Origin: a virus
Length of the DNA: 23,265 bases
Reading direction: 5' to 3' (one strand)
Virus record (IMG/VR): IMGVR_UViG_3300006990_000169
Location: 1 to 23,265 of that record
The notes below the pieces were generated by a model, which did not search any database, was not told where the DNA came from, and saw only the letters and a program-made list of their open reading frames with translations. Positions 3,881 to 23,234 of the stretch are shown piece after piece. Both the position numbers and the translations under genes were made by a program. Numbering within the stretch: the stretch's first letter is position 1; every line of letters begins with the position of its first letter.

Positions 3881-4612
3881 ATGTTACAAGCAGAACAGAT
3901 TTCTAAAAACTATCAAAAACATCTTAAGATTATCGATACATATATTGGAGATCGTGCCGATAGTATTAAATCTATGCTTAAACATATGGAAGAAACCTAT
4001 ATGATGGCACCTGCTAGTGGTAAAACTTGGTACCATAACGCCTTTCCCGGTGGATATGTAGATCATGTTAATAGAGTAGTACAATATGCTGTTGAACAAC
4101 ATAGACTTTATATTAAAATGGGAGGTACTGTAGATTATACTGAAGAGCAATTAGTATTTGCTGCACTCTTCCACGATTTAGGTAAGATAGGTGATGGAGA
4201 TAAACCAAACTATATACCTCAGACTGATAAATGGAGGCAAGATAAACTATCAGAGATGTATACCTACAATCCAGACCTAGACTTTATGCTTATTCCAGAC
4301 AGATCTCTATTCATATTACAGAAATTTGGTATAAAAGTAGATCAGAAAGAGTTTTTAGGTATCAGATGTCATGATGGAGTGTTTGATAAGGCTAATGAAG
4401 CGTACTTCTTCAGTAATGTTGAGTCATCTAGACAGAAAACAGCTTTAATATCAGTATTACATACAGCAGACTTCTTAGCTTCTAAGGTAGAATACGATAT
4501 GTGGAAGAATAAAGGTGGTAATTCAATGCCTAAGACACAAAAAACTAAAGCCTCTACAGGAAAACGAGTAAACTCTTCAGCAGGCCTATCTAATTTACTT
4601 AAAAATATTTAA
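3881..4612 (+). CDS. HD-domain phosphohydrolase
   Basis: The 243-residue protein shows the HD metal-binding pattern: His62 in GGYVDHVNRVV, His98-Asp99 in FHDLGK, His164-Asp165 in RCHDGVFD, and Asp197 in HTADFLAS. HD-domain enzymes hydrolyse phosphate esters, including nucleotides, (p)ppGpp and cyclic nucleotides; the substrate here cannot be read from sequence. The last 30 residues are Lys/Ser/Thr-rich and look disordered. The start follows AAAAAGGTT at 3868-3876, a relative of the leader element seen before smaller genes. It heads a cluster with a membrane-anchored protein and the late sigma factor, suggesting a middle-phase role in nucleotide supply or in clearing a host alarm signal (inference). 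Confidence 0.85.
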   Translation: MLQAEQISKNYQKHLKIIDTYIGDRADSIKSMLKHMEETYMMAPASGKTWYHNAFPGGYVDHVNRVVQYAVEQHRLYIKMGGTVDYTEEQLVFAALFHDLGKIGDGDKPNYIPQTDKWRQDKLSEMYTYNPDLDFMLIPDRSLFILQKFGIKVDQKEFLGIRCHDGVFDKANEAYFFSNVESSRQKTALISVLHTADFLASKVEYDMWKNKGGNSMPKTQKTKASTGKRVNSSAGLSNLLKNI

Positions 4613-4613
4613 T

Positions 4614-4934
4614 ATGAACTTAAATCCTACAACATTTTACATAATATTTACAGTTTTAGTTGTTTTGATAATAGTTTTTTCATATATTATAGTTAATCTA
4701 CTGTCAAAGGTAGAGAAATATGAAGATATAGCTGTAGATCAAACAACTTATTTGCAGAATATATCGAATCTTATAGGAGATTCACAAAAGCACCTTAACA
4801 AACTCGATGAACGTGGGGTTTTCAAGTCAGATGATGAGGTCGGTTATTTTTTTAAACAAATGCAAAACGTGCAAAAAGAGCTAGACCGATATATGCTCCC
4901 TCAAAATTATGGCAAGAAAGAAAAGCAAAGCTAA
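4614..4934 (+). CDS. Small membrane-anchored protein, 106 residues
   Basis: One strong N-terminal membrane segment (about residues 8-30) is followed by a probable coiled coil (31-66) and a conserved-looking motif, GVFKSDDEVGYFFKQM (68-83). From memory, small hypothetical proteins of T4-like cyanophages carry a similar DDEVGFxF stretch, which I cannot verify here. The gene begins one base after the upstream stop, and its last 26 bases overlap the start of the sigma gene, so all three are likely translated in step. The protein probably sits in the inner membrane with its C-terminus in the cytoplasm. Function unknown. Confidence 0.75.
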   Translation: MNLNPTTFYIIFTVLVVLIIVFSYIIVNLLSKVEKYEDIAVDQTTYLQNISNLIGDSQKHLNKLDERGVFKSDDEVGYFFKQMQNVQKELDRYMLPQNYGKKEKQS

Positions 4935-5613
4935 TTACTTTACAAAGGAGACAGAAGAATACATAGTTAGATACAATACTTCAGAAGATAATACGTATAG
5001 AAACTCAATCTTTACAGAACATATTTACTACCCTTTTTACAAACTAGCAGAGAACATCATTCATACTTTTAAATTCTATTATACAGATGTAGATAAAATA
5101 GAAGATTTAAAGCATGAAATTGTTTCTATGTTATTAGAAGAAAAGATAATGAAGTTTGATCCTACCAATGGAGCAAAAGCATACTCTTACTTCGGAACAA
5201 TAGTCAAAAGGTGGTTAATTAATTACAACAACAAGAACTATAAGAACCTTAAGAAGATAGGTACCTTCGATGAAATGTATGATGGTTATGAAACTAAAAT
5301 GCAAGTAGACGAAGAACATGCTATTACCTTAGGTCAGTTCTTAGATATATATGTTGAAAACACTTATGAAGAACTAGATGAATTATTCCCTAAAGATAAT
5401 GAAAAACGTATAGCTGACGCTATCCTTACTATATTTAAAACCAGACAAGATCTAGATATATTTAAAAAGAAAGCTCTTTACATATACATTAGAGAAATGA
5501 CGGATTGTGAGACACCTCACCTTACTAAAGTAGTTAATAAACTTAAAGAAGAATTTTATCTTTTACATAACAGTTATAATAAAGTAGGACTTATTCGTAC
5601 AAAAGTACTTTAA
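4909..5613 (+). CDS. 55: T4 gp55-like late sigma factor
   Basis: The 234-residue protein matches the pattern of late-transcription sigma factors of T4-like marine phages. The N-terminal part reads YFTKETEEYIVRYN, followed by YPFYKLAENIIHTFKFYYTDV (about residues 41-61). A sigma region-2-like segment carries DLKHEIVSMLLEE and FDPTNGAKAYSYFGTIVKRWLI (about 66-104). In T4, gp55 directs host RNA polymerase to late promoters that have only a short -10-like box, together with the sliding clamp. Its position immediately before the virion cassette, and the TATTTATAA-type motifs there, fit that role. It overlaps the preceding gene by 26 bases; the start MARKKSK has a plausible basic N-terminus. Confidence 0.85.
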   Translation: MARKKSKANYFTKETEEYIVRYNTSEDNTYRNSIFTEHIYYPFYKLAENIIHTFKFYYTDVDKIEDLKHEIVSMLLEEKIMKFDPTNGAKAYSYFGTIVKRWLINYNNKNYKNLKKIGTFDEMYDGYETKMQVDEEHAITLGQFLDIYVENTYEELDELFPKDNEKRIADAILTIFKTRQDLDIFKKKALYIYIREMTDCETPHLTKVVNKLKEEFYLLHNSYNKVGLIRTKVL

Positions 5614-5638: not shown

Positions 5639-6004
5639 ATGGACAGTAGTAAAGAAATATTTAAAGGCAAATCGCTATCTGACCTATTTGGTGAAATATA
5701 TGACAATTCTAGAGAGACAAAAACACAGGTTAAAGCATTAATCGGTGAACTTAAACCTCTTATAGAGAATATAGGAGATGCTACTCTTATTGTTCCTATG
5801 ATTAAAGAGTATATGGAAATAGGAGTAAAGAACGATGAACACTTAATCAAACTAGCAACAGTGATCCAGAGAATAGAAGCTATACAAGCTAAAGGAGATG
5901 GATCTGAAATATTTGATTTTGAATCATTACAGGATTTATTAGAAGAAAGCGAGAACGTACAGGAAGAAGTTAAAAACGTATCCGAAGAAGATAAAGAGGA
6001 ATGA
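5639..6004 (+). CDS. Small helical protein between sigma and hub genes
   Basis: The 121-residue product is acidic and mostly alpha-helical. It has a compact core (KSLSDLFGEIYDNSRETKTQ, then ALIGELKPLIENIGDATLIV, about residues 11-52) and a Glu-rich C-terminus that looks disordered (EESENVQEEVKNVSEEDKEE). Comparable short proteins occur near gp55 and gp5 in T4-like marine phages as I recall them, without a known function. Its stop overlaps the hub gene's start by four bases (ATGA), so the two are translationally coupled. It may be a virion component or an assembly factor; no membrane segment or catalytic motif is visible. Confidence 0.7.
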   Translation: MDSSKEIFKGKSLSDLFGEIYDNSRETKTQVKALIGELKPLIENIGDATLIVPMIKEYMEIGVKNDEHLIKLATVIQRIEAIQAKGDGSEIFDFESLQDLLEESENVQEEVKNVSEEDKEE

Positions 6005-7176
6005 GCTTAGACTATAATAGTATAAAACGTAGAACAACTACCTCACCAGTCAACACTGATAGTAATGAAGAGTTTATCGGTAGAGTTGTAGATATTATTC
6101 TAGATGATAAACATCCAGAGTATGCTAAATACGGGTATAGTGATAGTATAGGTTTAATAAAATATACAACATTAGGAGTAAGAGAAGAAAAAGGGGTTGA
6201 AATTGACGAGGAAGAATACGCAGGTATAGCTGTACCTCTTCGTAGAAATAGTAACCTTTATCCACTAAAAAATGAAGTAGTTATACTAACTATAGGACCA
6301 AGCTTTAACGTGGAAAACCAATCTTCAAGAGGTAAGGTCTACTACCAAACAGTTGTTTCTATCTATAACCACACCCATCATAATGCTCTACCACCAACCA
6401 CCGGAAGCAAAAGCGTAAATATAGGCGAAGGTATAGATGAACAGGGTAATCTAGCGCCACTGCAACCATTACCTGGTGATCATATAATAGAAGGTAGACT
6501 AGGACAATCACTACGCTTCTCAGGAGGCCTTTCAGAAAAGAGTACTTGGACTGATGATAGTAACAAAAATAAGCCTATAACCGTATTAAGAAACGGACAA
6601 AGAGAAGTAGAGGGAGGTTTTGCTAGTATTATGGAAGATATAAATGAAGATGATACTTCTATTTACCTCACCTCTAACCATATGATTCCTCTGACTTTAG
6701 CTAATAATAAGAGAGACACATATAATGAAAAACCTGATAACCCAACAAACTATCAAGGATCTCAATTACTATTTAACTCAGATAGACTTACTTTAAACGC
6801 TAAAAAAAGCGACATACTTATATCAAGTGCTGAATCGATAGGTTTAAACTCTAAATCAGCTCACATAGATGCTGATGACTATATGTGTTTTGATGCAGAT
6901 AAGATTTATTTAGGTAGACGAGCTAGAGCAAATGAAGGTGCTAATAAACAACCTGTTGTATTAGGACATAGAATGGAAGCGTTCTTACAAGCTGTATTAG
7001 ACCAATTGATAGCCCTATCTAAAGCTATGGGTGAAGCTAAAACTATGAAAAAAGAACTTATACCAACAATAAACCTAAGAGGAGAATCAGCAGCGATAGT
7101 ACTCACTGAACTTAAAAGACAGCTCAACCCTAAAGGTAATAGTACATTAAAATCTAATAAAACTTTCGTAGAATAA
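6001..7176 (+). CDS. 5: Baseplate hub protein, gp5-like, without lysozyme domain
   Basis: Residues about 24-125 look like the N-terminal OB fold of the T4 gp5 hub: EFIGRVVDIILDDKHPEYAKYGYSDSIG, then YPLKNEVVILTIGPS and VYYQTVVSIYNHTHHNALP (positions 24-51, 87-101 and 113-131). Residues about 155-290 are beta-rich (GDHIIEGRLGQSLRFSGG and SIYLTSNHMIPL). The C-terminal 80 residues are helical and basic. T4 gp5 is 575 residues with a lysozyme domain in the middle; this 391-residue protein has no room for one and I see no lysozyme motif. It would form the central hub at the base of the tail tube. Marine T4-like phages often have the same short form. Confidence 0.75.
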   Translation: MSLDYNSIKRRTTTSPVNTDSNEEFIGRVVDIILDDKHPEYAKYGYSDSIGLIKYTTLGVREEKGVEIDEEEYAGIAVPLRRNSNLYPLKNEVVILTIGPSFNVENQSSRGKVYYQTVVSIYNHTHHNALPPTTGSKSVNIGEGIDEQGNLAPLQPLPGDHIIEGRLGQSLRFSGGLSEKSTWTDDSNKNKPITVLRNGQREVEGGFASIMEDINEDDTSIYLTSNHMIPLTLANNKRDTYNEKPDNPTNYQGSQLLFNSDRLTLNAKKSDILISSAESIGLNSKSAHIDADDYMCFDADKIYLGRRARANEGANKQPVVLGHRMEAFLQAVLDQLIALSKAMGEAKTMKKELIPTINLRGESAAIVLTELKRQLNPKGNSTLKSNKTFVE

Positions 7177-8009
7177 TGCCCTGTAGTGTACCTCCATCGA
7201 ATCTCGCCCTCTTTATAGCTAAATACTTAGCAAAGCTAGAAGCATACGTTATAGCCAAAATATATGAAGAGGTTAATAAGATAATAGAAAAACTTATGGG
7301 ACAGGTATGTCCCCCAGTTGAAGAAATAGAAAAGCTATTAGCTTTGAGAGACAGCTTAGTTAATATGTTAAACGGGTTGGAGAAGAAAATAGAACCTATA
7401 AAAAAGTTCGCAGATATATTAGACCCTCCTATTAAAGCAGGAAAAGCAACCGTATTAGTATTAGAGCAATTACCTCTACTAGGTACTCTAGGATTACCAC
7501 CAGGGCCAAGTGGAGGTGTTATATTCTCTTTATCAGTAGGAGCACAAAATAGATTCTCACAGTTATTAAATCTAGCATGTCAAATAGTGGATTTACTAGA
7601 TAAAGATCAAAAAGCTATTAAAGATTTAACAGAAATAAGTTTTGACGGTCTTGTTCCTATAAAGCAAAAATTAGAGAGTATAGATTTAAAACTATTCTCT
7701 TGTGTAGATGCTTTACCTGAAGATGAAAAGAAGAGATTACTTGATTCTATAGACAACTTACCCTCTAATGCAGGGCTGTTAGGAAGAAGCACTACAGATA
7801 TAGACGGTACCCTTAGGTATTTCTATAAAGACTACATTATAGTAATTAAAGATGACGAAGAAACATCATTAAAAGTGGCAAAAAGAAGGTACGCACAAGT
7901 TGAAAGTGCTACCGGAGTTGTACTTATGAGAGGACCATCCTCTTTCAGTTCTTCAACAAAAGTACTAATAGACGAAATAAAATTCAGAATTAACAATCAA
8001 CTTCCATAA
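7176..8009 (+). CDS. Probable virion structural protein, 277 residues
   Basis: The start codon shares one base with the hub gene's stop (TAATG), so the two are coupled. The product is helical and hydrophobic in its first 170 residues, with Pro/Gly-rich joints (LLGTLGLPPGPSGGVIF, about residues 97-113) and four or five cysteines. The C-terminal third is beta-rich: STTDIDGTLRYFYKDYIIVI, then SLKVAKRRYAQVESATGVV. No named family. Its place between the hub and the gp25 wedge gene argues for a baseplate or tail component, perhaps a hub accessory or tape-measure-associated protein. No secretion signal is visible despite the hydrophobic helices. Confidence 0.7.
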   Translation: MPCSVPPSNLALFIAKYLAKLEAYVIAKIYEEVNKIIEKLMGQVCPPVEEIEKLLALRDSLVNMLNGLEKKIEPIKKFADILDPPIKAGKATVLVLEQLPLLGTLGLPPGPSGGVIFSLSVGAQNRFSQLLNLACQIVDLLDKDQKAIKDLTEISFDGLVPIKQKLESIDLKLFSCVDALPEDEKKRLLDSIDNLPSNAGLLGRSTTDIDGTLRYFYKDYIIVIKDDEETSLKVAKRRYAQVESATGVVLMRGPSSFSSSTKVLIDEIKFRINNQLP

Positions 8010-8026
8010 ACTAACTATTTATTAAT

Positions 8027-8485
8027 ATGAAACTAGATCAATTACGAAAAATTATACGTGAAGAAGTCAGATCAGCTGTGAAGGAAGAGTTACAAGAAGT
8101 AATGAACGAAGCAGTAAAAGCAGCAAGTGCGCCAACAACATACACCGCACCTAGTAAGACTATTCAAGTAGAAACTCAACAACCGACTCCTATGAACCCT
8201 ATTATGGGGAAAAAGTCGCTTGATGAGATGTTACAAATGACAAAGTCAAACATGACTAACGAAGAGTATAAAACAATATTCTCAGGTAATGCCCAAAATG
8301 CAATGGGAGGAGTACCAACTCCAACAGGAGCTCCTAGACAAAACGTAGCTAATTCATTAGCTAACCAGATGAATATGAGCACAGGAGGAGGGATAGATAT
8401 ATCTCAATTAGACTTTGTAAAAAACGCAGGAGCAGTATTAAAAGCTGCTAACGAAAAAGATAAACAAAAAGCAGGAATAGTATAG
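8027..8485 (+). CDS. Probable virion or assembly protein, 152 residues
   Basis: An N-terminal amphipathic helix (MKLDQLRKIIREEVRSAVKE, residues 1-20, continuing to about 35) is followed by a Pro/Thr-rich linker. A Met/Asn/Gly-rich stretch (about residues 60-125) looks flexible. A short basic helix closes the protein. The LRKIIREEV start recurs in small proteins of T4-like marine phages, as far as I recall. The protein could act as a coiled-coil adaptor or scaffold in baseplate assembly. TATTTATTAA at 8016-8025, just before the ATG, resembles the late motif imperfectly. One base separates its stop from the gp25 start. Confidence 0.65.
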   Translation: MKLDQLRKIIREEVRSAVKEELQEVMNEAVKAASAPTTYTAPSKTIQVETQQPTPMNPIMGKKSLDEMLQMTKSNMTNEEYKTIFSGNAQNAMGGVPTPTGAPRQNVANSLANQMNMSTGGGIDISQLDFVKNAGAVLKAANEKDKQKAGIV

Positions 8486-8486
8486 T

Positions 8487-8894
8487 ATGGCATTTGACGC
8501 AAAAAGAATTAACCCTATAGATCGACAGCCTAGAAAGGCAGTTGGAGTATCTCTGCCATTTTCTGGCAAAGCAGTGTTTAATTCTACTTTTGAGACGAAA
8601 GAAGCTATAAAGTCTAATATTATTAACTACCTTTTAACTGGAAAAGGAGAAAGGTATATGAACCCAACGTTTGGATCAGGTATTAGAGATGAACTATTTA
8701 CAAATGTTAATAGAGAGAATACAAGTTCTTTAGAAGTTAAAGTTGCTACTGAACTTAGAAACTATTTTCCTAATCTTGCTATAGTACAACTAAGTATAAC
8801 TCCATCACCCGATAGTAATTTGATATCACTAAGTATAAACTTTAGAATTAAAGACACTCAGGTAGAAGATGAAGTAACAATAAATTTTGAATAA
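8487..8894 (+). CDS. 25: Baseplate wedge protein gp25
   Basis: The 135-residue product has the gp25/GPW signature: VGVSLPFSGKAVFNSTFETK, then IINYLLTGKGERYMNPTFGSGIRDELF (about residues 46-72), with the conserved ERxxNPxFG core. In T4, gp25 sits in the inner baseplate ring, clamps the gp6 dimer and starts sheath assembly; the same fold serves as TssE in type VI secretion. Length is close to T4 gp25 (132 residues). The neighbouring downstream gene is gp6, its physical partner, two bases away. Confidence 0.92.
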   Translation: MAFDAKRINPIDRQPRKAVGVSLPFSGKAVFNSTFETKEAIKSNIINYLLTGKGERYMNPTFGSGIRDELFTNVNRENTSSLEVKVATELRNYFPNLAIVQLSITPSPDSNLISLSINFRIKDTQVEDEVTINFE

Positions 8895-8896
8895 CA

Positions 8897-10714
8897 ATGG
8901 CAAAAGACATTAACATTAAATATACGGATAAGGATTTTTCTTCAATGAAAGGTCAACTTATAGAGTTAGCTAAAAACTACTTTCCCGATTCGTATAACGA
9001 CTTTTCACCCACATCACCTGGTATGATGTTTATTGAAATGGCAGCTTATGTAGGGGATATATTATCCTTTTACCAAGACAGTCAGATTCAAGAAACATTC
9101 CTTCAGTACGCTCAAGACCCAGGTAACCTTCATTCAATGGCATATATGATGGGGTATAAACCAAGAGTCAGTACCTCCTCAACCGTAGATATAGATATCA
9201 CCCAGATTATAGCAGCATCCGGATCTACATACGAACCAGACTTTAGTCAAGCATTTAGTTTTGAAGCTGATCCAAGTAAAGGTTCTGTAATAATAGTCAG
9301 TGCAGGAGAACAAGATTTCTTTATAGATACACCTGTTGATTTTTCTTTTTCAAGCTCATATGACCCAACTGAAATAAGTATATTCTCAGTAGACAATAAT
9401 GCTGAAGCAGCAGAATATCAACTAAGAAAGACGGTAAAAGCAAAATCAGGAAAGCTAGTCACACGTACAGAAACAGTCGGAACAGCTTCTAAGTTCTTTA
9501 CTGTAGAAATAAACGATACAGATATAATAGGTATATACGATATAGTAGATAGCGAAGGTAACAGATGGACAGAAGTACCTTATTTAGGTCAAGATTTAGT
9601 TCTTTCTGAAGCTTTAAATGTTGGAAACAATCAACAAGATGTTCCATATATGTTATCAAGTGAAATTATACCTAATAGGTTCGTAACAAGGTTTACATCT
9701 ACTGGACAACTAAACGTACAGTTTGGAGCAGGTATGTCTTCATCAACTGGTACAGCTTTTGTACCTAACCCAACTCATGTTGGAGCCGGTACTAATCAAG
9801 GTATAAGAAGAACAGATTATGCTTACGATCCTTCTAACTTCCTATTTACTGATGCATACGGTAATACCCCTTCTAATACTACTTTAACTATACGGTACTT
9901 AACCGGAGGCGGAATAGAATCTAATATAGAAGCAAATACAATCACAGGAGCTACATATACAGCAAACGCTACAGACGATACATATCGTACATCTATAGAA
10001 TTTACAAATCAAACACCAGCGACAGGAGGAAAAGACAGTGATTCTGCAGAAGAGATCAGACAAAACTCTCTTAGAGCATTTCAAGAACAAGGTAGAATCG
10101 TTACAAGAGAAGATTATGCTTTTAGAGCATTAACTTTACCTGTGAGATTTGGCTCTATAGCTAAAGCTTTTGTAACCACAGACGCCGAAATACCTTCTGC
10201 TACCACTAATATATATAATCCTCTAGGAGTATGTATATATGTATTAGCTTACGATAGTAACAAGAAATTAACAGTACCGTCGTTAGAATTAAAACAAAAC
10301 CTTAAGACTTATATAGCTCAATTTAAACCCCTAACTGATGGATGTACAATCAAAGATGGTTACACAGTAAATATAGGTGTTAAATACGATATCATAACTT
10401 TACCGAGTTATAGTTCAAGAGATGTTTTGATAAGATGTAATCAGGCACTGACACAACATTTTAATATTGATAACTGGTCTATTAATCAACCTATTAATTT
10501 ATCATCAATTTACACGCTGTTAGATCAAGTGAAAGGAGTTCAAACAGTACAGGATGTAAAAGTAAAAACCAAAGTAGGAGGTACCTACAGTAAATATGAT
10601 TACGATATAGAAGGAGCAACTAAAAATAATATAGTTTACCCTTCACTTGATCCAATGATATTTGAAGTAAAATATCCTGCCAGTGATATACAAGGTAGAA
10701 TAACAACATTATAA
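8897..10714 (+). CDS. 6: Baseplate wedge protein gp6 (baseplate J-like)
   Basis: The 605-residue protein opens with the gp6/baseplate-J pattern: YTDKDFSSMKGQLIELAKNYFP, then FSPTSPGMMFIEMAAYVGDILSFYQDSQIQE and LHSMAYMMGYKPR (about residues 9-95). The conserved GGKDSDSAEEIRQNSLRAFQEQGR segment, with IVTREDYAFRAL following, lies at about 375-412. The C-terminal third carries the dimerisation region. In T4, gp6 dimers form the iris-like inner ring around the hub, with gp25 and gp53. The length is close to T4 gp6 (660). The start is two bases after gp25, as in many T4-like phages. Confidence 0.9.
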   Translation: MAKDINIKYTDKDFSSMKGQLIELAKNYFPDSYNDFSPTSPGMMFIEMAAYVGDILSFYQDSQIQETFLQYAQDPGNLHSMAYMMGYKPRVSTSSTVDIDITQIIAASGSTYEPDFSQAFSFEADPSKGSVIIVSAGEQDFFIDTPVDFSFSSSYDPTEISIFSVDNNAEAAEYQLRKTVKAKSGKLVTRTETVGTASKFFTVEINDTDIIGIYDIVDSEGNRWTEVPYLGQDLVLSEALNVGNNQQDVPYMLSSEIIPNRFVTRFTSTGQLNVQFGAGMSSSTGTAFVPNPTHVGAGTNQGIRRTDYAYDPSNFLFTDAYGNTPSNTTLTIRYLTGGGIESNIEANTITGATYTANATDDTYRTSIEFTNQTPATGGKDSDSAEEIRQNSLRAFQEQGRIVTREDYAFRALTLPVRFGSIAKAFVTTDAEIPSATTNIYNPLGVCIYVLAYDSNKKLTVPSLELKQNLKTYIAQFKPLTDGCTIKDGYTVNIGVKYDIITLPSYSSRDVLIRCNQALTQHFNIDNWSINQPINLSSIYTLLDQVKGVQTVQDVKVKTKVGGTYSKYDYDIEGATKNNIVYPSLDPMIFEVKYPASDIQGRITTL

Positions 10715-10715
10715 G

Positions 10716-11819
10716 ATGGCGATATATAAACTATTTAGTACAAAAGATACCTTTATCTACACCGAGAAGCAATTAGCTAACTTAGGTAGAGATGAACTAC
10801 TTGAAGTAGGTGGATACCACAACTCAGGAGGAGGACAAACTTTGAGAACATTAATCAAGTTTGATACAGCAGAAATACAAGACATTATTAATAATAAAGC
10901 AAACGGAGGAAACGTACAAACTAATTTGCATATGTATTTAAACTATGCTAATGAACTTCCTATAGACTTTGATGTTAATTGTTACCCTATAGCAGAAGAT
11001 TGGGATGAAGGGTCTGGTAAATTCGGAGATACACCAACTAACAGAACAGGAGCAAGCTGGAACTATAAAAACGCAGGAGCAGCAAACCATTGGCCTACCG
11101 GTAGTTTTCCAACATACGTTACAGCATCATTTGAAACCACTGTTTTAGGTGGAGGTACCTGGTATACCGGTTCTGCAGATAGCACATTAGAGGCTGTACA
11201 GTCTTTCAATAAAACTTCTGATCTTGACTTAGACATAGATATTACCAGTGGAGTATTAATGCATTACAGCGAAAGCTTAGACAACAACGGCTTTATACTA
11301 AAACTACCAGATAACTTAGAAAATAATCTATCAGCTTCTATTAGGTTAAAATACTACGGCAACGATACTAATACTATTTACCCTCCTAGTTTAGATATAA
11401 AATGGGATGACTACATTCACTCATCTACTCTCCCAGAGATAAATGATCCAGAAGTAGTAGTAAGTATTAAGAACAACAAAGGTAAATACACAGACGAAGG
11501 TAAACAAAGATTCAGAGTTCATGCTAGACCTAAATATCCAGCTAGAACATTCACAACATCTTCTGCCTATACAGTTAACTACACTCTACCTACTGCATCT
11601 TATTGGGGCTTGAAAGATGAGAACACAGAAGAAATGGTATTCGACTACGATAATACATTTACAAAAATAAGTGCAGATAATACTTCTAACTATTTCGACA
11701 TTTACATGGACGGTATACAGCCAGAAAGGTACTATAGGTTACTTATTAAAACAGAAATAGACGGAACTACAACAATTATAGATAATGATCAAGTATTTAA
11801 GGTAGTAAGAAATGGGTAA
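10716..11819 (+). CDS. DNRLRE-like fibrous tail/baseplate protein
   Basis: Residues 1 to about 230 resemble the DNRLRE beta-sandwich seen in surface and phage fibre proteins: KDTFIYTEKQLANLGRDELL, then RTLIKFDTAEI, a long central strand set, and YPIAEDWDEGSGKFGD with ASWNY. Residues about 245-367 form a second beta-rich unit (VVSIKNNKGKYTDEGKQRFRVHARPKY). No catalytic motif. It lies directly after gp6, in the slot where T4-like phages place outer wedge or fibre-connecting proteins, so a peripheral baseplate role is likely. It overlaps the next gene by eight bases (ATGGGTAA). Confidence 0.65.
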   Translation: MAIYKLFSTKDTFIYTEKQLANLGRDELLEVGGYHNSGGGQTLRTLIKFDTAEIQDIINNKANGGNVQTNLHMYLNYANELPIDFDVNCYPIAEDWDEGSGKFGDTPTNRTGASWNYKNAGAANHWPTGSFPTYVTASFETTVLGGGTWYTGSADSTLEAVQSFNKTSDLDLDIDITSGVLMHYSESLDNNGFILKLPDNLENNLSASIRLKYYGNDTNTIYPPSLDIKWDDYIHSSTLPEINDPEVVVSIKNNKGKYTDEGKQRFRVHARPKYPARTFTTSSAYTVNYTLPTASYWGLKDENTEEMVFDYDNTFTKISADNTSNYFDIYMDGIQPERYYRLLIKTEIDGTTTIIDNDQVFKVVRNG

Positions 11820-12798
11820 AAAAGTAGAAATACAAAAGACTGTTTTTAATCGTAAATCCTTTCAGGAGGTAATCGACAGAGATTTTAAGTTTTTCAAAGA
11901 ACTTGAACCTGTTGTAGACCCTGATACTATAGAAGAGTTATTTAGACTATATGATAAGTTGTATATTACTATTCCTATAGAAGGTCAAGGTAATACTCAT
12001 CAATACTTAGTAGAAAGAAGTTCTGAACTATATAAAATAGATGCACAATTAGACAACATACAACCATTATTAGATGAAATAGCTTCTTTAAGAGTGCAGC
12101 TTTTAGACGATAAAAGACGTATACTGGAACTAGAAACATCTTTAGCAGGAGGAGGTCAACTTGACTTTGATTCTGCAGAACAAATGGAACTATTAAAATC
12201 ACAACTTGGAGCAGCTAACTCTACTATAGCAACCCTAGAACAAGCTAATGCATTATCTAATCAAGCAACAGAACAAGCAACTGCTGCAGCTAACGCTGCT
12301 GCGGAAGCCGCTACTGCCGCTGCACAAACAGCATCTGAAACTTCTCAATCTTCACAAGCCACTACACAGGCAGTAACTGAGATTAAAGAACTACTTAATA
12401 AGAAAGGATCTTCCTTGAGGTATGCACGTAAAGCTCTCGAAAAACCACAAAATGCATGGGTTGCAGTTAAAGGTTTTAGAATGTACGGCAGTAGGGTAGT
12501 AAAAAACCTTTGGTGGTTATACTCAGATACTAAAGAAGATAGTAGACGTTATTCAGAAAGATTCAACAGAAGACAGCCTACTAAATACAATTACTTAATA
12601 CCTAAATCTAAAGACCACTTAGGAGACTTAACTTTAGATTTTTTGATATCTGAATTAAAACAAGCAGGTTTTAAAGCACAAGAGATAGTTGATGGATGTC
12701 AAGCATTTAATAATTTTAAAAATAATGCAAGGTTTAGGTTAATTACATACAAAGATAAGGACAGAGAAGACGAAGTAGGTTACGTCTGGATAGATTAA
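11812..12798 (+). CDS. Coiled-coil tail protein with an alanine-rich linker
   Basis: The 328-residue product has three parts. Residues 1-70 are globular. Residues about 75-148 form a clear coiled coil (LDEIASLRVQLLDDKRRILE, LETSL). Residues about 151-188 are a low-complexity Ala/Thr/Ser/Gln segment. The last 130 residues are a basic globular domain rich in Arg, Tyr and Lys (SRRYSERFNRRQPTKYNYLIPKSKDH). Proteins of this layout occur beside large baseplate proteins in environmental T4-like phages as I recall, with unknown function. The coiled coil suggests a trimeric or dimeric connector between the wedge and the large protein encoded five bases downstream. Confidence 0.65.
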   Translation: MGKKVEIQKTVFNRKSFQEVIDRDFKFFKELEPVVDPDTIEELFRLYDKLYITIPIEGQGNTHQYLVERSSELYKIDAQLDNIQPLLDEIASLRVQLLDDKRRILELETSLAGGGQLDFDSAEQMELLKSQLGAANSTIATLEQANALSNQATEQATAAANAAAEAATAAAQTASETSQSSQATTQAVTEIKELLNKKGSSLRYARKALEKPQNAWVAVKGFRMYGSRVVKNLWWLYSDTKEDSRRYSERFNRRQPTKYNYLIPKSKDHLGDLTLDFLISELKQAGFKAQEIVDGCQAFNNFKNNARFRLITYKDKDREDEVGYVWID

Positions 12799-12803
12799 AA
12801 GAT

Positions 12804-15800
12804 ATGATGAAAACAAAATATACTTTATTAGATGAGAACTTAAATAGTATACCTGAAAACGAGGTTATATCTGATAACGACTTATCTTTAATTGATAATT
12901 ATAAAATCAATAAAAAGTTTACTGAGGGTATAGACTATGTTGAAGGGCATATTTACTCCGTTACTAATGAATTGTTGTATTCTAACTATGAGGTAGAAAT
13001 ACCATTCATGGATCAAATTAGTGATGAAAGTGACGGACTAAGTCAACTTAGCTTTGAACCTACAGATTTTACTATTCAATCTGGTTTTGAATATTCAGAC
13101 ACTAAGGTAGTAATGCACTTTCTTAAAGACCTATATACCCAATCAGGACCAACATCTAGGTTTTATATTGATAAAATAAGCAGTGACAGAAAAGAAATAC
13201 TCCTTGCCTCTACAGATATAAGTGTTAACAATTTAATTAACACTACAGAAAAAATAAGAAGTAGATTTAATGAAGGAACATATTTAGAAGAAATTTACCT
13301 AAATCTAGGTAATAATGACCTTTTAATAGCAACTAATATAGATGTTTACGAACAAACCAGTAAATACACAGTTGCATTAAAGTTATATGAACCTCTACCT
13401 AATTACTATAACTTAAAACAAACAGGACAGTTAGTAGAAAAATTAAGTGATTCTGTAGCTGTAAGAGTAGATGTCACTATAACCGAAGATGCTGAAATAA
13501 CACCGAAACTAAGAGGAGCTAATTTTGATGTAGAAACTGGAGCTAATTTAGCCTCACCAACAGAATATCAAACATATGATGAATTAATTAGTTTTGATTC
13601 AAATAATTCAAATAAAGAAGTACTATCTTATTTAGAAGAAAAAAGCGTAACATTAAACATAGACTACTCAGACTTATCAAACTATATACACTTTTCTTCT
13701 GCTGTTGAAAGATTAGAGAACTTTAAATATAAATTAAATTTACTAGAATCTTATGAAAACGCTTTAGTTAATATATCTAACTCTAACGTTCAAACTAACC
13801 ATAATAATAAGTATAACAGCTTAATACAAGGAGTACTGAATAATTTTGACCATTACGAAAAACACTTGTATTTCGAAAGCGGTTCTACAAGCTGGCCAAA
13901 AACATCTAGTAATAAACCATACATTAACACATCAACAACATCTACAGAAGCAACCGCATGGTTTAGTTCTTCTTTAGAGGACGCTACAAACTATGATACT
14001 AGTAACTATGATATGCTTTCTAACACTATTCCTTCGTATATAGGAGAAGATAGATCAAATAGAAACGGTGTATTATTTGTGCATATGATAGGGCACCATT
14101 TCGATAATTTATGGACATACACAAAAGCAGTTTCTGATAAGTACGACAATGACAATAGGTTAGACCACGGAATATCTAAAGATATGGTTAGAGAAGCTCT
14201 TACTTCTTTTGGAGTAAAGCTTTATAACTCTAAAGAAGGTAGTAACGACTTATTTAAATACTTAATACAGGACACCTACTCAAGCGGAAGCTCAGCAGAA
14301 GTAATCAATAACTTTATAACACCTCCAGGATTACCAGATAATTCTCAACCCGTATCTAGAAAAGATTACGAAGGAGAGCTTTACAAAAGAATATACCATA
14401 ACCTACCTTACCTTTTAAAAGCAAAAGGAACTGAAAGAGGTTTAAGAGCACTAATAAATTGTTTTGGTATACCTTCTTCTATATTAGAAGTTAAACAGTA
14501 TGGTGGGTTACATGACGAAACAGATGATAATTTATCCACAGAAGATATAATCAAAACATACCCAGATACAGCATTAACAGGATCTATTGACAAAATAACT
14601 GTAGAGACGACTACTTCTGGTTCTGTAGGTAATGTACTATCTAGATATACATCTATCCATAAAGACGAGTTAGAAAAAGACCCGGATCTTCATAGAATAG
14701 AAGTAGGTTTTTCTCCTGCAGATTCTATAAACAAATACATTCTATCAACAGAGGTATTAACTGCAACATTTGATGACTTAATAGGTAATCCTCGAGATCT
14801 TACAGAGAATACTTATGGAAAATATGATACCTTTAGTTTTAAAAAAGCTAGAGAATACGTTTTATTTAACACAGAAAGAACACAGTTAAATGACTTTGTT
14901 AGGATTCTAAAGTTCTACGACAACGTACTCTTTAAAATGATTAAAGATTTTGTACCTGCTAAAGCTACTTTAGATACAGGGATAATAATTAAACCTCATA
15001 TTTTAGAACGCAATAAAATTAAATCTCCATCTGTAGATATAAGCACTTTAGACCATGAAGGTTCTATGGAAACTGCCTTTACTACAGGTTCACATGGAGG
15101 GGCATACGTTAATGGAGATACAACGGTTTATTCAAAAGAAGTAAAAACCACTTTAGGTCTTACACAAAAACCTATAGATGATGAATCTCCAATGTTTGAC
15201 GGAGAATTAAGCGGTAGTAATATTACAGTAACAGACGGTGAATTAAACAACCTTAACGTATTTAAGAAAGATACACCACCTCAATTGAGATACCAGGTAA
15301 CAATAGTTAAACAAGATACAGCTGATAATTTAACTTCATTTTACGTATGGCCTGGAGCTGCTGCGAATAACGGATCAGGAGCTCAAACAGCCTGTGGTTA
15401 TGATGCTAGTACTTTTGGCTCTACACCATCTACATTATACCACAACGGAGAAGGAGAATTCCCTGTAGCTGGAGATTTTGTTTTCTCTGATATTAACGCT
15501 ACAACTACCTTTAATGGACAAGGAAAGTGGTGGAAACTAACAGGGGACGGTAAAAGTTTATTAATATCTGGCTCCGGAAACCATCAAGGAACAGTCGCAT
15601 ATGTACAAGATTGTAGCGCATATGATAATACAGCACCTTCTGGATATACTGCTACATGGGGTATGTCTCCAAAACAAATTAACGCTAGTAACTTTACAGC
15701 AGTCCCTTTTGAAATAGTAAATGGAGAGCTAGGAAGCACATACACAGCTAGTGCATACCTACAAGCAATACCTGGTACAGTAGTTACTTCTATAGGAACG

Positions 15801-16985
15801 GTAACCAATGCTTCTTCTTTTATAGGTAGTATAGACACTACTAATTTAGCTGATGGAAACAACGTAGAACTTGAAGTAGTATTAACAGATACAGCCGGTA
15901 ACTCAGGGTCAATAGCACCTGTAGCAACCACAGTACCAAATGCTAGTCTGATAGCAACAGTAAAAGCAGTTCAAGGACCTTCTGGATACAGTATAGACTT
16001 CAAGACAGACGGTACATATACTACGTCAGCTACAACTAGTACAGACGGTAATTTCTATTTAAAAATAGAAAATATACCCCCCGGACAAACCGGTACAGTT
16101 TATTACGGGCTTGTATCAACAGGAGGAGGTACAGCTTACTCAAACTCACAAAACCTTAGCAACCTACAGGTAGTAGGTGGTGTATTAAAAATAACAATAC
16201 CAGACTTCGCACATGCATTAGCAAACGGAACCGTTACAGTCACCTTTTATATAGTAGATACTGCTAACAACCAAGGACCAAATGCAACCGACAGTATTAC
16301 TCTATTAAAGACAACCGGTAAACTAATGCCTGCAAGTACAACAGTAGGATACACAGGAGGTTCACAAACCTTTACAGTTCAAGTAACTCCTTCAAGCACC
16401 TCTTGGACTGTAACATCTTCACAAACCTGGGTTAGTATTAGTAATGGATCCGGAACCGGTCCTTCTAGTAATGTAACAGTTTCAGCAGGGTTTAACGGCG
16501 ATGTAAACGGTAGAATTGCTTTAATACGTTTGAATACCTCTAGTGGTCAACAGTTAGATTTTTCTAACTTTAACCAAGACGCTAACTGTATAGACCCTGA
16601 AACAAACATCAGAATCGGAAACGGAACAACAATTAAAGCTAAAGATATAATAGTAGGTACAGAAATTAGAACACAAGACGAAACTACTTTAGAATGGACA
16701 TTAGCATTGGTAAATGAAGTTAAGGTACATAAAGAAAATTCAAAAGTTAAAATTATTTTTGAAGATGGTTATTTAATATGTTCTCCTGAACATAGGGTAT
16801 ATGTAGATAATAAAACTGAATACATAGCAGTCTCTAAATTAAAAGATGGTGACATACTGTCTGGTAAAAAATATATTTCTAGCGAAAAACAAGAACCAGG
16901 AGATGTAATAAACCTATCTGTAGAAAAAGCACATACATATATTAGTAATGGAATACTGTCTCATAACAATAAACAGTTCCAATAA
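12804..16985 (+). CDS. Large baseplate/adhesin protein with Ig-like, BACON and C-terminal Hint domains
   Basis: The 1393-residue protein has a conserved tail-module N-terminal part. It includes FVHMIGHHFDNLWTYTKA (about residues 424-441) and YKRIYHNLPYLLKAKGTERG then RALINCFGIPSSIL (about 527-561), motifs I associate with large baseplate wedge proteins of environmental T4-like phages. By place and size it could take the role of T4 gp7 (1032 residues). From about 840 on it is beta-rich: a segment with TACGYDAS, LYHNGEGEFPVAGDFVFSD and NGQGKWWKL, typical of large Bacteroidota surface proteins, then two Ig-like units with LTDTAGN and YIVDTANN, a BACON domain (1173-1261) and a Hint domain (1262-1388). 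Five residues follow the Hint domain. The last 550 residues look like an added host-recognition module. Confidence 0.8.
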   Translation: MMKTKYTLLDENLNSIPENEVISDNDLSLIDNYKINKKFTEGIDYVEGHIYSVTNELLYSNYEVEIPFMDQISDESDGLSQLSFEPTDFTIQSGFEYSDTKVVMHFLKDLYTQSGPTSRFYIDKISSDRKEILLASTDISVNNLINTTEKIRSRFNEGTYLEEIYLNLGNNDLLIATNIDVYEQTSKYTVALKLYEPLPNYYNLKQTGQLVEKLSDSVAVRVDVTITEDAEITPKLRGANFDVETGANLASPTEYQTYDELISFDSNNSNKEVLSYLEEKSVTLNIDYSDLSNYIHFSSAVERLENFKYKLNLLESYENALVNISNSNVQTNHNNKYNSLIQGVLNNFDHYEKHLYFESGSTSWPKTSSNKPYINTSTTSTEATAWFSSSLEDATNYDTSNYDMLSNTIPSYIGEDRSNRNGVLFVHMIGHHFDNLWTYTKAVSDKYDNDNRLDHGISKDMVREALTSFGVKLYNSKEGSNDLFKYLIQDTYSSGSSAEVINNFITPPGLPDNSQPVSRKDYEGELYKRIYHNLPYLLKAKGTERGLRALINCFGIPSSILEVKQYGGLHDETDDNLSTEDIIKTYPDTALTGSIDKITVETTTSGSVGNVLSRYTSIHKDELEKDPDLHRIEVGFSPADSINKYILSTEVLTATFDDLIGNPRDLTENTYGKYDTFSFKKAREYVLFNTERTQLNDFVRILKFYDNVLFKMIKDFVPAKATLDTGIIIKPHILERNKIKSPSVDISTLDHEGSMETAFTTGSHGGAYVNGDTTVYSKEVKTTLGLTQKPIDDESPMFDGELSGSNITVTDGELNNLNVFKKDTPPQLRYQVTIVKQDTADNLTSFYVWPGAAANNGSGAQTACGYDASTFGSTPSTLYHNGEGEFPVAGDFVFSDINATTTFNGQGKWWKLTGDGKSLLISGSGNHQGTVAYVQDCSAYDNTAPSGYTATWGMSPKQINASNFTAVPFEIVNGELGSTYTASAYLQAIPGTVVTSIGTVTNASSFIGSIDTTNLADGNNVELEVVLTDTAGNSGSIAPVATTVPNASLIATVKAVQGPSGYSIDFKTDGTYTTSATTSTDGNFYLKIENIPPGQTGTVYYGLVSTGGGTAYSNSQNLSNLQVVGGVLKITIPDFAHALANGTVTVTFYIVDTANNQGPNATDSITLLKTTGKLMPASTTVGYTGGSQTFTVQVTPSSTSWTVTSSQTWVSISNGSGTGPSSNVTVSAGFNGDVNGRIALIRLNTSSGQQLDFSNFNQDANCIDPETNIRIGNGTTIKAKDIIVGTEIRTQDETTLEWTLALVNEVKVHKENSKVKIIFEDGYLICSPEHRVYVDNKTEYIAVSKLKDGDILSGKKYISSEKQEPGDVINLSVEKAHTYISNGILSHNNKQFQ
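16320..16586 (+). other. BACON domain within the large protein
   Basis: Residues 1173-1261 read as a BACON domain: GGSQTFTVQV, SWTVTSSQTWVSISNGSGTG, SSNVTVSAGFN, then GRIALIRLNTSSGQQLDFSNFNQ split over the last strands. The W-V-S-I-S plus Gly/Ser turn is the family hallmark. BACON domains are known from Bacteroidota surface enzymes and from crAss-like phages, where carbohydrate or mucin binding is proposed. Confidence 0.7.
16587..16967 (+). other. C-terminal Hint (intein-like) domain without endonuclease
   Basis: Residues 1262-1388 carry the intein blocks: block A begins with Cys1262 (CIDPETNIRIGNG), block B is GYLICSPEHRVYV with the conserved His, and block F/G is VINLSVEKAHTYISNGILSHN, ending in the His-Asn pair 1387-1388. 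There is no homing endonuclease between B and F, so this is a mini-Hint of 127 residues. The +1 residue is Asn1389, not Cys/Ser/Thr, and only NKQFQ follows. That resembles bacterial intein-like (BIL) domains, which cleave instead of splicing. Confidence 0.85.
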
Positions 16986-21593: not shown

Positions 21594-23234
21594 ATGGCAA
21601 TAACGTTAAGAACAAATAAAGGTACAGCACTATCATATGAAGAAATGGACATTAACTTGAGTTCATTTTTTTACTCTGCATCTCTATCCACAGATTTATC
21701 TCAATTAAGTCTATACACAACAGGAAGCGGTGTACAAGCCGGAACCTCTTTAGATATACCTCTAAACCCATATACTGGATCTGCTCCACAAGTAGCAGGT
21801 AATGTAGGAGAATTACAATTTAAAGCTAACAACACACAGTTTGGAGGAGCAACTGAATTAAAGTATGATAGCTCTGGAGGTGGATTAGTAATTAACGATA
21901 CAAGTCTAGCAACAGGAGAAAGATTAAAAGTCAAAGACGGTGCACTAGTTGTAAAAAACTCAGAACTTAGAATAGCTTCTGGACAATACTCAGCTAGTTT
22001 AGCTTATGGAGGTACTACACATGATTTAACTATCCGTAATTTATTTGAAGGAAACGATGCAGATATAATCATTCAAACCGGAGGTAGTGAGTCTTTTAGA
22101 ATTAAAGGAGACGGAACTTTTGCTACAAGAGGAGCAGATACTAGTCTTGGAGACGCTGTAATAAGCGGTAGTGTAGTTTTCGGTAAAACACATGAAGACA
22201 CATATCGTTCAAAACTATTTACATGGGATTCATCAGATACTAGAATTGAAAATAACTTAGGTAACAATCTTCTAAAAGGAAATTCAAGAGGTATTATATT
22301 AGAAGGACCACAGTCAGCACATGTACTAATGGGGATTCAATCCTCAACAGGAGATGAAGGTTTTACGATTATTAAGGCAACACCAACATCTAGTGAGGAT
22401 CCAACATACAACTCAGTTATCGCTCATTTTGGAGCAGACGGTAATGTAGGGATAGGTACAACAGCAACACCAACAGGATATCAACTATCCGTAGTAGGAA
22501 GTATATCCGGATCTAACGGACTTAATATAGGTGGTAACTCAGTTATTACAGGATCTATTACAACTAATGCTACTTTAAACGTAAGTGGTTCAACAACCCT
22601 ATCAGGATCCGTAACCCTTAACACAGTAGGTAATGCAGCAAGTGCAACTAACTATAATTACCTTGTAAGAGAAAGTAATGGTAATGTAACACAACAGGTG
22701 AATGCAGCACCAATTCCTCAAGGAGGTATTATAATGTGGTCTGGAGCAGTTCAAACACTTCCTAGTGGATGGGCACTCTGTAATGGACAAACACAAAACG
22801 GAGTAACAACTCCAGATTTGAGAAACAGGTTTGTAGTAGCTAGCAATAATTCAACAGGAACACCAACTACTACTATTAGCGGAAGTGCGGTTTCAACAGG
22901 AGGAAATACTAACCATGATCATTTTGGTTCTACTCAAGCTCATACTTTGACGTTTGCACAAATGCCACAACATACACATCAATATAAAGATTCTTACTAT
23001 ATTGAATATAATAACCCAGGTGTAGGTCAAAACGGAGCAATAGGCGGAGTAGATAATGTAGGTCCGACAAAATACAAAGGAAGTGGAGATAGTGACACAG
23101 ATAATAAATATGTATACTGGAGATCTGGTACTACTGCACAAACAGGTAACAGCACAGGACACGATCACGATATCACAACATCATACCATGTACCTACATT
23201 TTACTCTTTAGCTTTTATTATGTATACGGGCTAA
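21594..23234 (+). CDS. Short tail fibre with phage tail collar domain (gp12-like)
   Basis: The 546-residue protein has an N-terminal attachment part (TNKGTALSYEEMDINLSSFF). It continues as a long beta-rich shaft with Gly-Ser-rich repeats (VVGSISGSNGLNIGG, GSITTNATLNVSGSTTLSGS). A tail collar domain lies at about residues 374-425 (PQGGIIMWSGAVQTLPSGWALCNG, in two blocks, then TPDLRNRFVVASNN). The tip is His-rich (NHDHF, MPQHTHQY, GHDHD) and ends YSLAFIMYTG, as in many collar-type fibres. In T4 gp12, clustered histidines bind zinc within the trimer, and the same is likely here. The protein would bind the host surface irreversibly. No dedicated fibre chaperone is visible before the window ends. 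Confidence 0.8.
   Translation: MAITLRTNKGTALSYEEMDINLSSFFYSASLSTDLSQLSLYTTGSGVQAGTSLDIPLNPYTGSAPQVAGNVGELQFKANNTQFGGATELKYDSSGGGLVINDTSLATGERLKVKDGALVVKNSELRIASGQYSASLAYGGTTHDLTIRNLFEGNDADIIIQTGGSESFRIKGDGTFATRGADTSLGDAVISGSVVFGKTHEDTYRSKLFTWDSSDTRIENNLGNNLLKGNSRGIILEGPQSAHVLMGIQSSTGDEGFTIIKATPTSSEDPTYNSVIAHFGADGNVGIGTTATPTGYQLSVVGSISGSNGLNIGGNSVITGSITTNATLNVSGSTTLSGSVTLNTVGNAASATNYNYLVRESNGNVTQQVNAAPIPQGGIIMWSGAVQTLPSGWALCNGQTQNGVTTPDLRNRFVVASNNSTGTPTTTISGSAVSTGGNTNHDHFGSTQAHTLTFAQMPQHTHQYKDSYYIEYNNPGVGQNGAIGGVDNVGPTKYKGSGDSDTDNKYVYWRSGTTAQTGNSTGHDHDITTSYHVPTFYSLAFIMYTG

Follow-up and report, generated by a model that had tools for sequence, protein, structure and literature searches.

A Hint domain with a lysine-bearing tail at the C-terminus of a phage tail protein

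The tail protein encoded by ORF 12804-16985 (plus strand, 1393 aa) in the viral record analysed here, a 23,265-base stretch that may be a fragment and that we call the window in its entirety, ends in a complete domain of the Hint (Hedgehog/intein) superfamily, covering residues 1262-1388 (16587-16967, plus strand) from Cys1 to the terminal His-Asn. Its HN-N-K tail places it in a widespread and apparently undescribed group of Hint domains on phage proteins, most of them tail proteins, in which a lysine stands one or two residues after His-Asn (positions +1 or +2). A search of the open-licence literature, a body that excludes subscription papers, returned neither a lysine-tailed Hint group nor Hint domains ending tail proteins; the phage matches in this literature were instead inteins in terminases, reductases and helicases. 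Our preferred reading, which we put at slightly short of an even chance, is that of a self-processing domain resembling type-A BILs, in which Cys1262 would form a thioester, Lys1390 would serve as a built-in acyl acceptor and cyclisation of the terminal asparagine would provide the exit.

The Hint domain and the protein that carries it

The right half of the window encodes the tail module of a myovirus that is a relative of Flavobacterium phage vB_FspM_immuto. It includes genes for gp25-like (8487-8894) and gp6-like (8897-10714) baseplate wedge proteins, and the 1393-aa tail protein is encoded two genes past the latter. Residues 1-870 of this protein are homologous to immuto gp162 (41% identity), which likewise comes soon after the baseplate wedge genes, and further genes lie between it and a tail collar fibre (21594-23234). 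Towards its end, a BACON-like beta-sandwich domain (residues 1174-1249; 16323-16550, plus strand; Pfam BACON_2 4.6e-5, just below the cut-off) adjoins the Hint domain with about a dozen residues between them, the two forming separate beta domains back to back in a predicted model of residues 1159-1393. The position of the protein and its BACON-like domain make it a plausible candidate for the adhesin role given to it in a preliminary description of this DNA.

That description had also claimed that the phage tail protein carries, at its very C-terminus, a complete Hint domain, and this is confirmed by profiles and by the predicted fold. Pfam matches to Intein_splicing (1.7e-6) and PT-HINT (3.3e-5) are both below curated cut-offs (for PT-HINT, PF07591, 24.6 bits for residues 1233-1393 vs a cut-off of 27.7), and the NCBIfam model intein_Cterm gives 25.4 bits vs a cut-off of 15.6. 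When a family profile built from a 14-member alignment of window-type Hint domains is run against PDB sequences, it matches Tetrahymena thermophila BUBL1 BIL2 (1.3e-9), the C. thermocellum BIL (2e-7) and the gp41-1 intein (2.4e-5). The AlphaFold model of the domain (pLDDT 92.5) has the Hint fold; BUBL1 BIL2 is its best solved-structure match in Foldseek (4.4e-10) and ranks first in VIA-align (Z 20.6 over 132 residues), with several inteins within one Z unit.

Blocks A, B, F and G are all present, and their residues lie where they had been claimed to lie. Cys1262 (16587-16589), the expected nucleophile of an N-S acyl shift, and His1330 (16791-16793), the histidine of block B (CSPEHRVYV), are each found in 14/14 aligned window-type relatives; block F reads VEKAHTYISNG, and block G is formed by His1387-Asn1388 (16962-16967), whose asparagine is expected to cyclise. 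Five residues, N-K-Q-F-Q (16968-16982), then precede the stop codon, and among them only Lys1390 (16971-16973), at +2 after Asn1388, is conserved; all of these features are on the plus strand. A Thr-x-His/Asp-Glu...Glu-Trp motif in a hairpin at Hint residues 29-37 (16671-16697) is also conserved in most members, less strictly than the catalytic residues.

Ordinary splicing inteins carry Cys, Ser or Thr at +1. The window Hint shares with inteins such as gp41-1 the fold and all four splicing blocks, but it has Asn at +1, lacks an endonuclease, and is followed by five residues instead of a functional C-extein in a conserved host. Standard splicing therefore seems unlikely, as had been argued before, and since the +1 residue is free across the family, canonical splicing is not its conserved activity. 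The likeness to the PT-HINT domains of polymorphic toxins is limited to the sub-threshold profile match, as the window Hint is the last domain of its protein with no toxin domain behind it; a toxin function was rejected on this ground, and a defence reading found no PADLOC match. The C-terminal domain of Hedgehog (1AT0, Z 19.0) is also a C-terminal Hint, one that passes its thioester to another nucleophile, but the window Hint keeps His-Asn and a short lysine tail and has no sterol-recognition region. The description that fits best is that of type-A BILs, which end in His-Asn, have no obligatory +1 nucleophile and lie outside conserved protein cores (PMC4031507, PMC5874633), all of which holds here. 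Cys1, the block B histidine, the terminal His-Asn and the variable +1 are shared with type-A BILs such as that of C. thermocellum (2LWY), whereas neither a lysine rule nor placement at the end of phage tail proteins occurs in the BIL literature compared.

A lysine after the terminal asparagine

Relatives were gathered from viral contigs and prophages through the N-terminal part of the tail protein together with three Hint alignments; a single-sequence search of viral contigs with the window Hint alone gave no matches. No search pattern extended past His-Asn, so the tail residues were not selected for. The resulting 99 non-redundant domains (clustered below 88% similarity) are carried by myovirus baseplate-region proteins, siphovirus J-like tail-tip proteins and others, and form three groups: 1) window-type domains on the homologous myovirus protein; 2) domains carried by Sphingomonas-like prophages and by other contigs, whose host proteins are J-like tail-tip proteins (phrog_5616, phrog_31) or other tail proteins (phrog_376, phrog_2048); 3) domains found mostly within low-complexity proteins, one phage member of which (L117) scores above the PT-HINT cut-off. 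In ten loci of this third group (L103, L105, L108, L112 and L117-L122), HN-K Hints lie inside Pro/Gly-rich phage proteins and are followed by 170-1500 residues. Cultured hosts of carrier prophages include Sphingomonas naasensis KIS18-15 and Stakelama pacifica DSM 25059.

The terminal placement recurs on other phage tail proteins, many chains ending exactly at the lysine after His-Asn (HNGK, HNNK, HNTK, HNIK); L032 and L087 are examples with a two-residue tail. Among window-type members, L014 (14666-15061) alone has a real domain behind its Hint: HN-LK is followed by a Gly-rich linker and a C-terminal domain (GGGNKIICNELYRQGYLPEEIW...) that has no PHROG match, 133 residues in all. In another locus, L125, two neighbouring tail genes (4416-5501 and 5898-8348) each end in a lysine-tailed Hint. 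A reading in which several Hint proteins of one phage act as mutual partners was rejected, as L125 is the only case with two.

Lysine follows the terminal asparagine in 98 of the 99 non-redundant domains, at +2 in 67 and at +1 in 31 (L185 is a Lys+1 member), the sole exception (L157) resembling a Thr+1 intein. When all distinct copies are counted it is present in 116 and absent in seven, six of which are distant Hints or inteins with low scores and the seventh a contig (L131) cut one residue after the asparagine. It is encoded by both codons (AAA 49, AAG 67) and is never replaced by Arg at +1/+2. Its partner in the +1/+2 pair is free (I, V, L, N, A, G, T or K at +1), and on the domain tree the lysine has switched between the two positions about five times while itself being retained. 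In the 91 lysine-bearing domains of standard length, the fully conserved columns are Cys1, His69, Tyr118, Ser125, His126 and Asn127. Among 17 control inteins and PT-HINT domains, a small set scored by eye that serves as a rough control, 15 carry a +1 Cys, Ser or Thr and three have Lys at +1/+2, two of these beside Cys+1. Lys1390 had not been singled out as a conserved feature of the tail in the preliminary description.

Short tails after His-Asn were also seen elsewhere. A Hint-like protein of a 484-kb uncultured phage ends HN-KH; a bacterial PT-HINT outside the phage set (L337, bacterial genome G513) ends HN-KCVQC, with Lys at +1 of a five-residue tail; and a 163-aa open frame of Lak phage B5 (L303, 2980 onward) has a Hint-like end, HN-SGSNF, with Ser at +1.

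Inheritance of the domain and of an upstream neighbour

In the tree of the window family, the Hint-bearing proteins form one clade, in which no member with an intact C-terminus has lost the Hint. Their nearest complete sisters (L006, L024) have none and end a few residues past the BACON-like domain, at about the position of Cys1. Identity to the window is 63% in the Hint vs 81% in the N-terminal part for L001, and about 42% vs 50% for L032. As the divergence of the Hint thus follows that of its host protein and the Hint-bearing proteins are a single clade, a recently mobile intein was rejected. The window Hint is under purifying selection: dN/dS is 0-0.12 in five pairs of Hint domains (four close, one more distant) and 0.36, above the others, for the window/L001 pair. 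In the J family, a J-type query matched 11 phage records and a second-type Hint query one phage record only; judging from these sequence matches, this family seems to have Hint-less members as well.

The baseplate-region protein encoded just upstream (ORF 11812-12798) carries an extra C-terminal domain of about 140 aa (12376-12795, plus strand), immuto gp161 consisting of just the shared N-terminal part of about 115 aa. This domain is present wherever readable in the Hint-bearing loci of the window family and in none of the 42 loci with a complete Hint-less homologue. Eighteen further loci without it are truncated ahead of the C-terminus of the Hint-position protein, and so are three loci that have the extra domain but show no Hint (L002, L003, L016). 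The extra domain and the Hint map to the same single branch, so that their association amounts to one evolutionary event. For this reason, and as it has no invariant Lys or Cys, the extra domain was rejected as a Lys or Cys acceptor; a role as partner or chaperone is possible. None of the other Hint-bearing groups examined showed it.

Possible chemistry of the lysine-tailed Hint

The window Hint is very probably competent for processing. In the sequence of steps that we infer, the chain before Cys1262 would shift onto its sulphur as a thioester with the assistance of His1330, the amine of Lys1390, presumably held beside the active site, would attack this thioester, and the Hint domain would be released as Asn1388 cyclises together with His1387. 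Asn1261 would become the last residue of the tail protein, carrying a short lysine peptide attached by an amide or isopeptide bond, or bearing a free carboxylate if hydrolysis were to prevail; any benefit to the virion is likewise conjectural. In L014 this chemistry would ligate or set free the domain in the 133 residues behind the Hint.

The chemistry has parallels among known systems. Type-A BILs form a thioester at Cys1, cleave at Asn and ligate by amine attack on the thioester, all without a +1 nucleophile (PMC4031507), and BIL2 is reported to form a lysine isopeptide bond (PMC8616854). BIL2 (PDB 6Y75, 6TMM) is the best fold and profile match of the window Hint and likewise lacks a +1 nucleophile, but it is eukaryotic, lies between two ubiquitin-like domains and is only about 20% identical to the window Hint. 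Its acceptor lysine is in the downstream domain and its own +1/+2 residues are apparently Met-Gln, so that it is a precedent for the chemistry and not for the placement. The earlier suggestion of a thioester passed to another nucleophile has gained weight from the invariant lysine and the BIL2 fold, its chemistry being one that we infer.

That the lysine is the acyl acceptor is possible, at rather less than an even chance. A lysine within two residues of the scissile asparagine, free in position and fixed in identity, is what would be expected of an amine acceptor that has reach. The main weakness of this assignment is its modest product, the predicted scar being 2-14 residues long, and the lysine could instead aid asparagine cyclisation or hold the tail. 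Plain cleavage of the type-A BIL kind, in which thioester hydrolysis and/or asparagine cyclisation would remove the Hint once folding or assembly of the tail protein is complete and the lysine would help cyclisation or place the tail without being a nucleophile, is a serious if lesser possibility. It agrees with the fact that type-A BILs mostly cleave (PMC4031507) and with the ends of the Hint-less sister proteins near the Cys1 position, but simple release needs neither an invariant lysine in a two-residue tail nor the exclusion of arginine.

Cross-linking or anchoring of the tail tip, with the thioester handed to an amine of an adjacent subunit, of a different virion protein or of the host surface, appears improbable. 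BIL2 does pass a ubiquitin-like domain to lysines of other proteins (PMC8616854), Gly-rich linkers precede Cys1 in many members, and the extra upstream domain is co-inherited with the Hint in the window clade; that domain, however, has the shortcomings described above (no invariant Lys or Cys, a single-branch origin, absence from the other groups), and with a conserved lysine in cis there is less need for an acceptor from outside. The covalent joining to a virion partner or host surface put forward in the preliminary description is therefore speculation, and an acceptor within the chain itself is more likely than one on the host. It is more unlikely still that the Hint is a structural cap, its fold retained for folding, trimerisation or receptor binding and no longer processed: it does sit at the chain end and is kept together with its host protein, but a cap would need none of Cys1, His, His-Asn and Lys, which are conserved amid wide divergence elsewhere. 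Least probable of all, and by our estimate very remote, is that the domain is what remains of a selfish intein after loss of its endonuclease and +1 residue. Homology to inteins speaks for such an origin; against it stand the purifying selection, the retention of the Hint in all intact clade members, the presence of this lysine signature in tail proteins that are unrelated to one another and the intact catalytic residues of the relatives.

Returning to the self-processing domain with Lys1390 as its acceptor, it is doubtful, though conceivable, that the lysine-tailed domains make up a separate Hint class, in which a built-in lysine would take the place of the C-extein nucleophile and leave tail proteins with an isopeptide-capped or cross-linked C-terminus, without a helper enzyme or ATP. 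Should the lysine be the acyl acceptor, this would be a compact, single-chain, ATP-free route to an isopeptide bond, with a natural group big enough for comparative work and a candidate tool for protein ligation. C-terminal processing of tail-tip proteins would then also take place in several phage lineages, and annotated lengths and structure predictions would be wrong at the very end that may meet the host. Should the lysine only aid cleavage, the signature would still define a group recognisable from sequence. Taken together, the conserved residues of these domains suggest that these phages may shorten their tail proteins at the tip, or rejoin the tip, by unusual chemistry.
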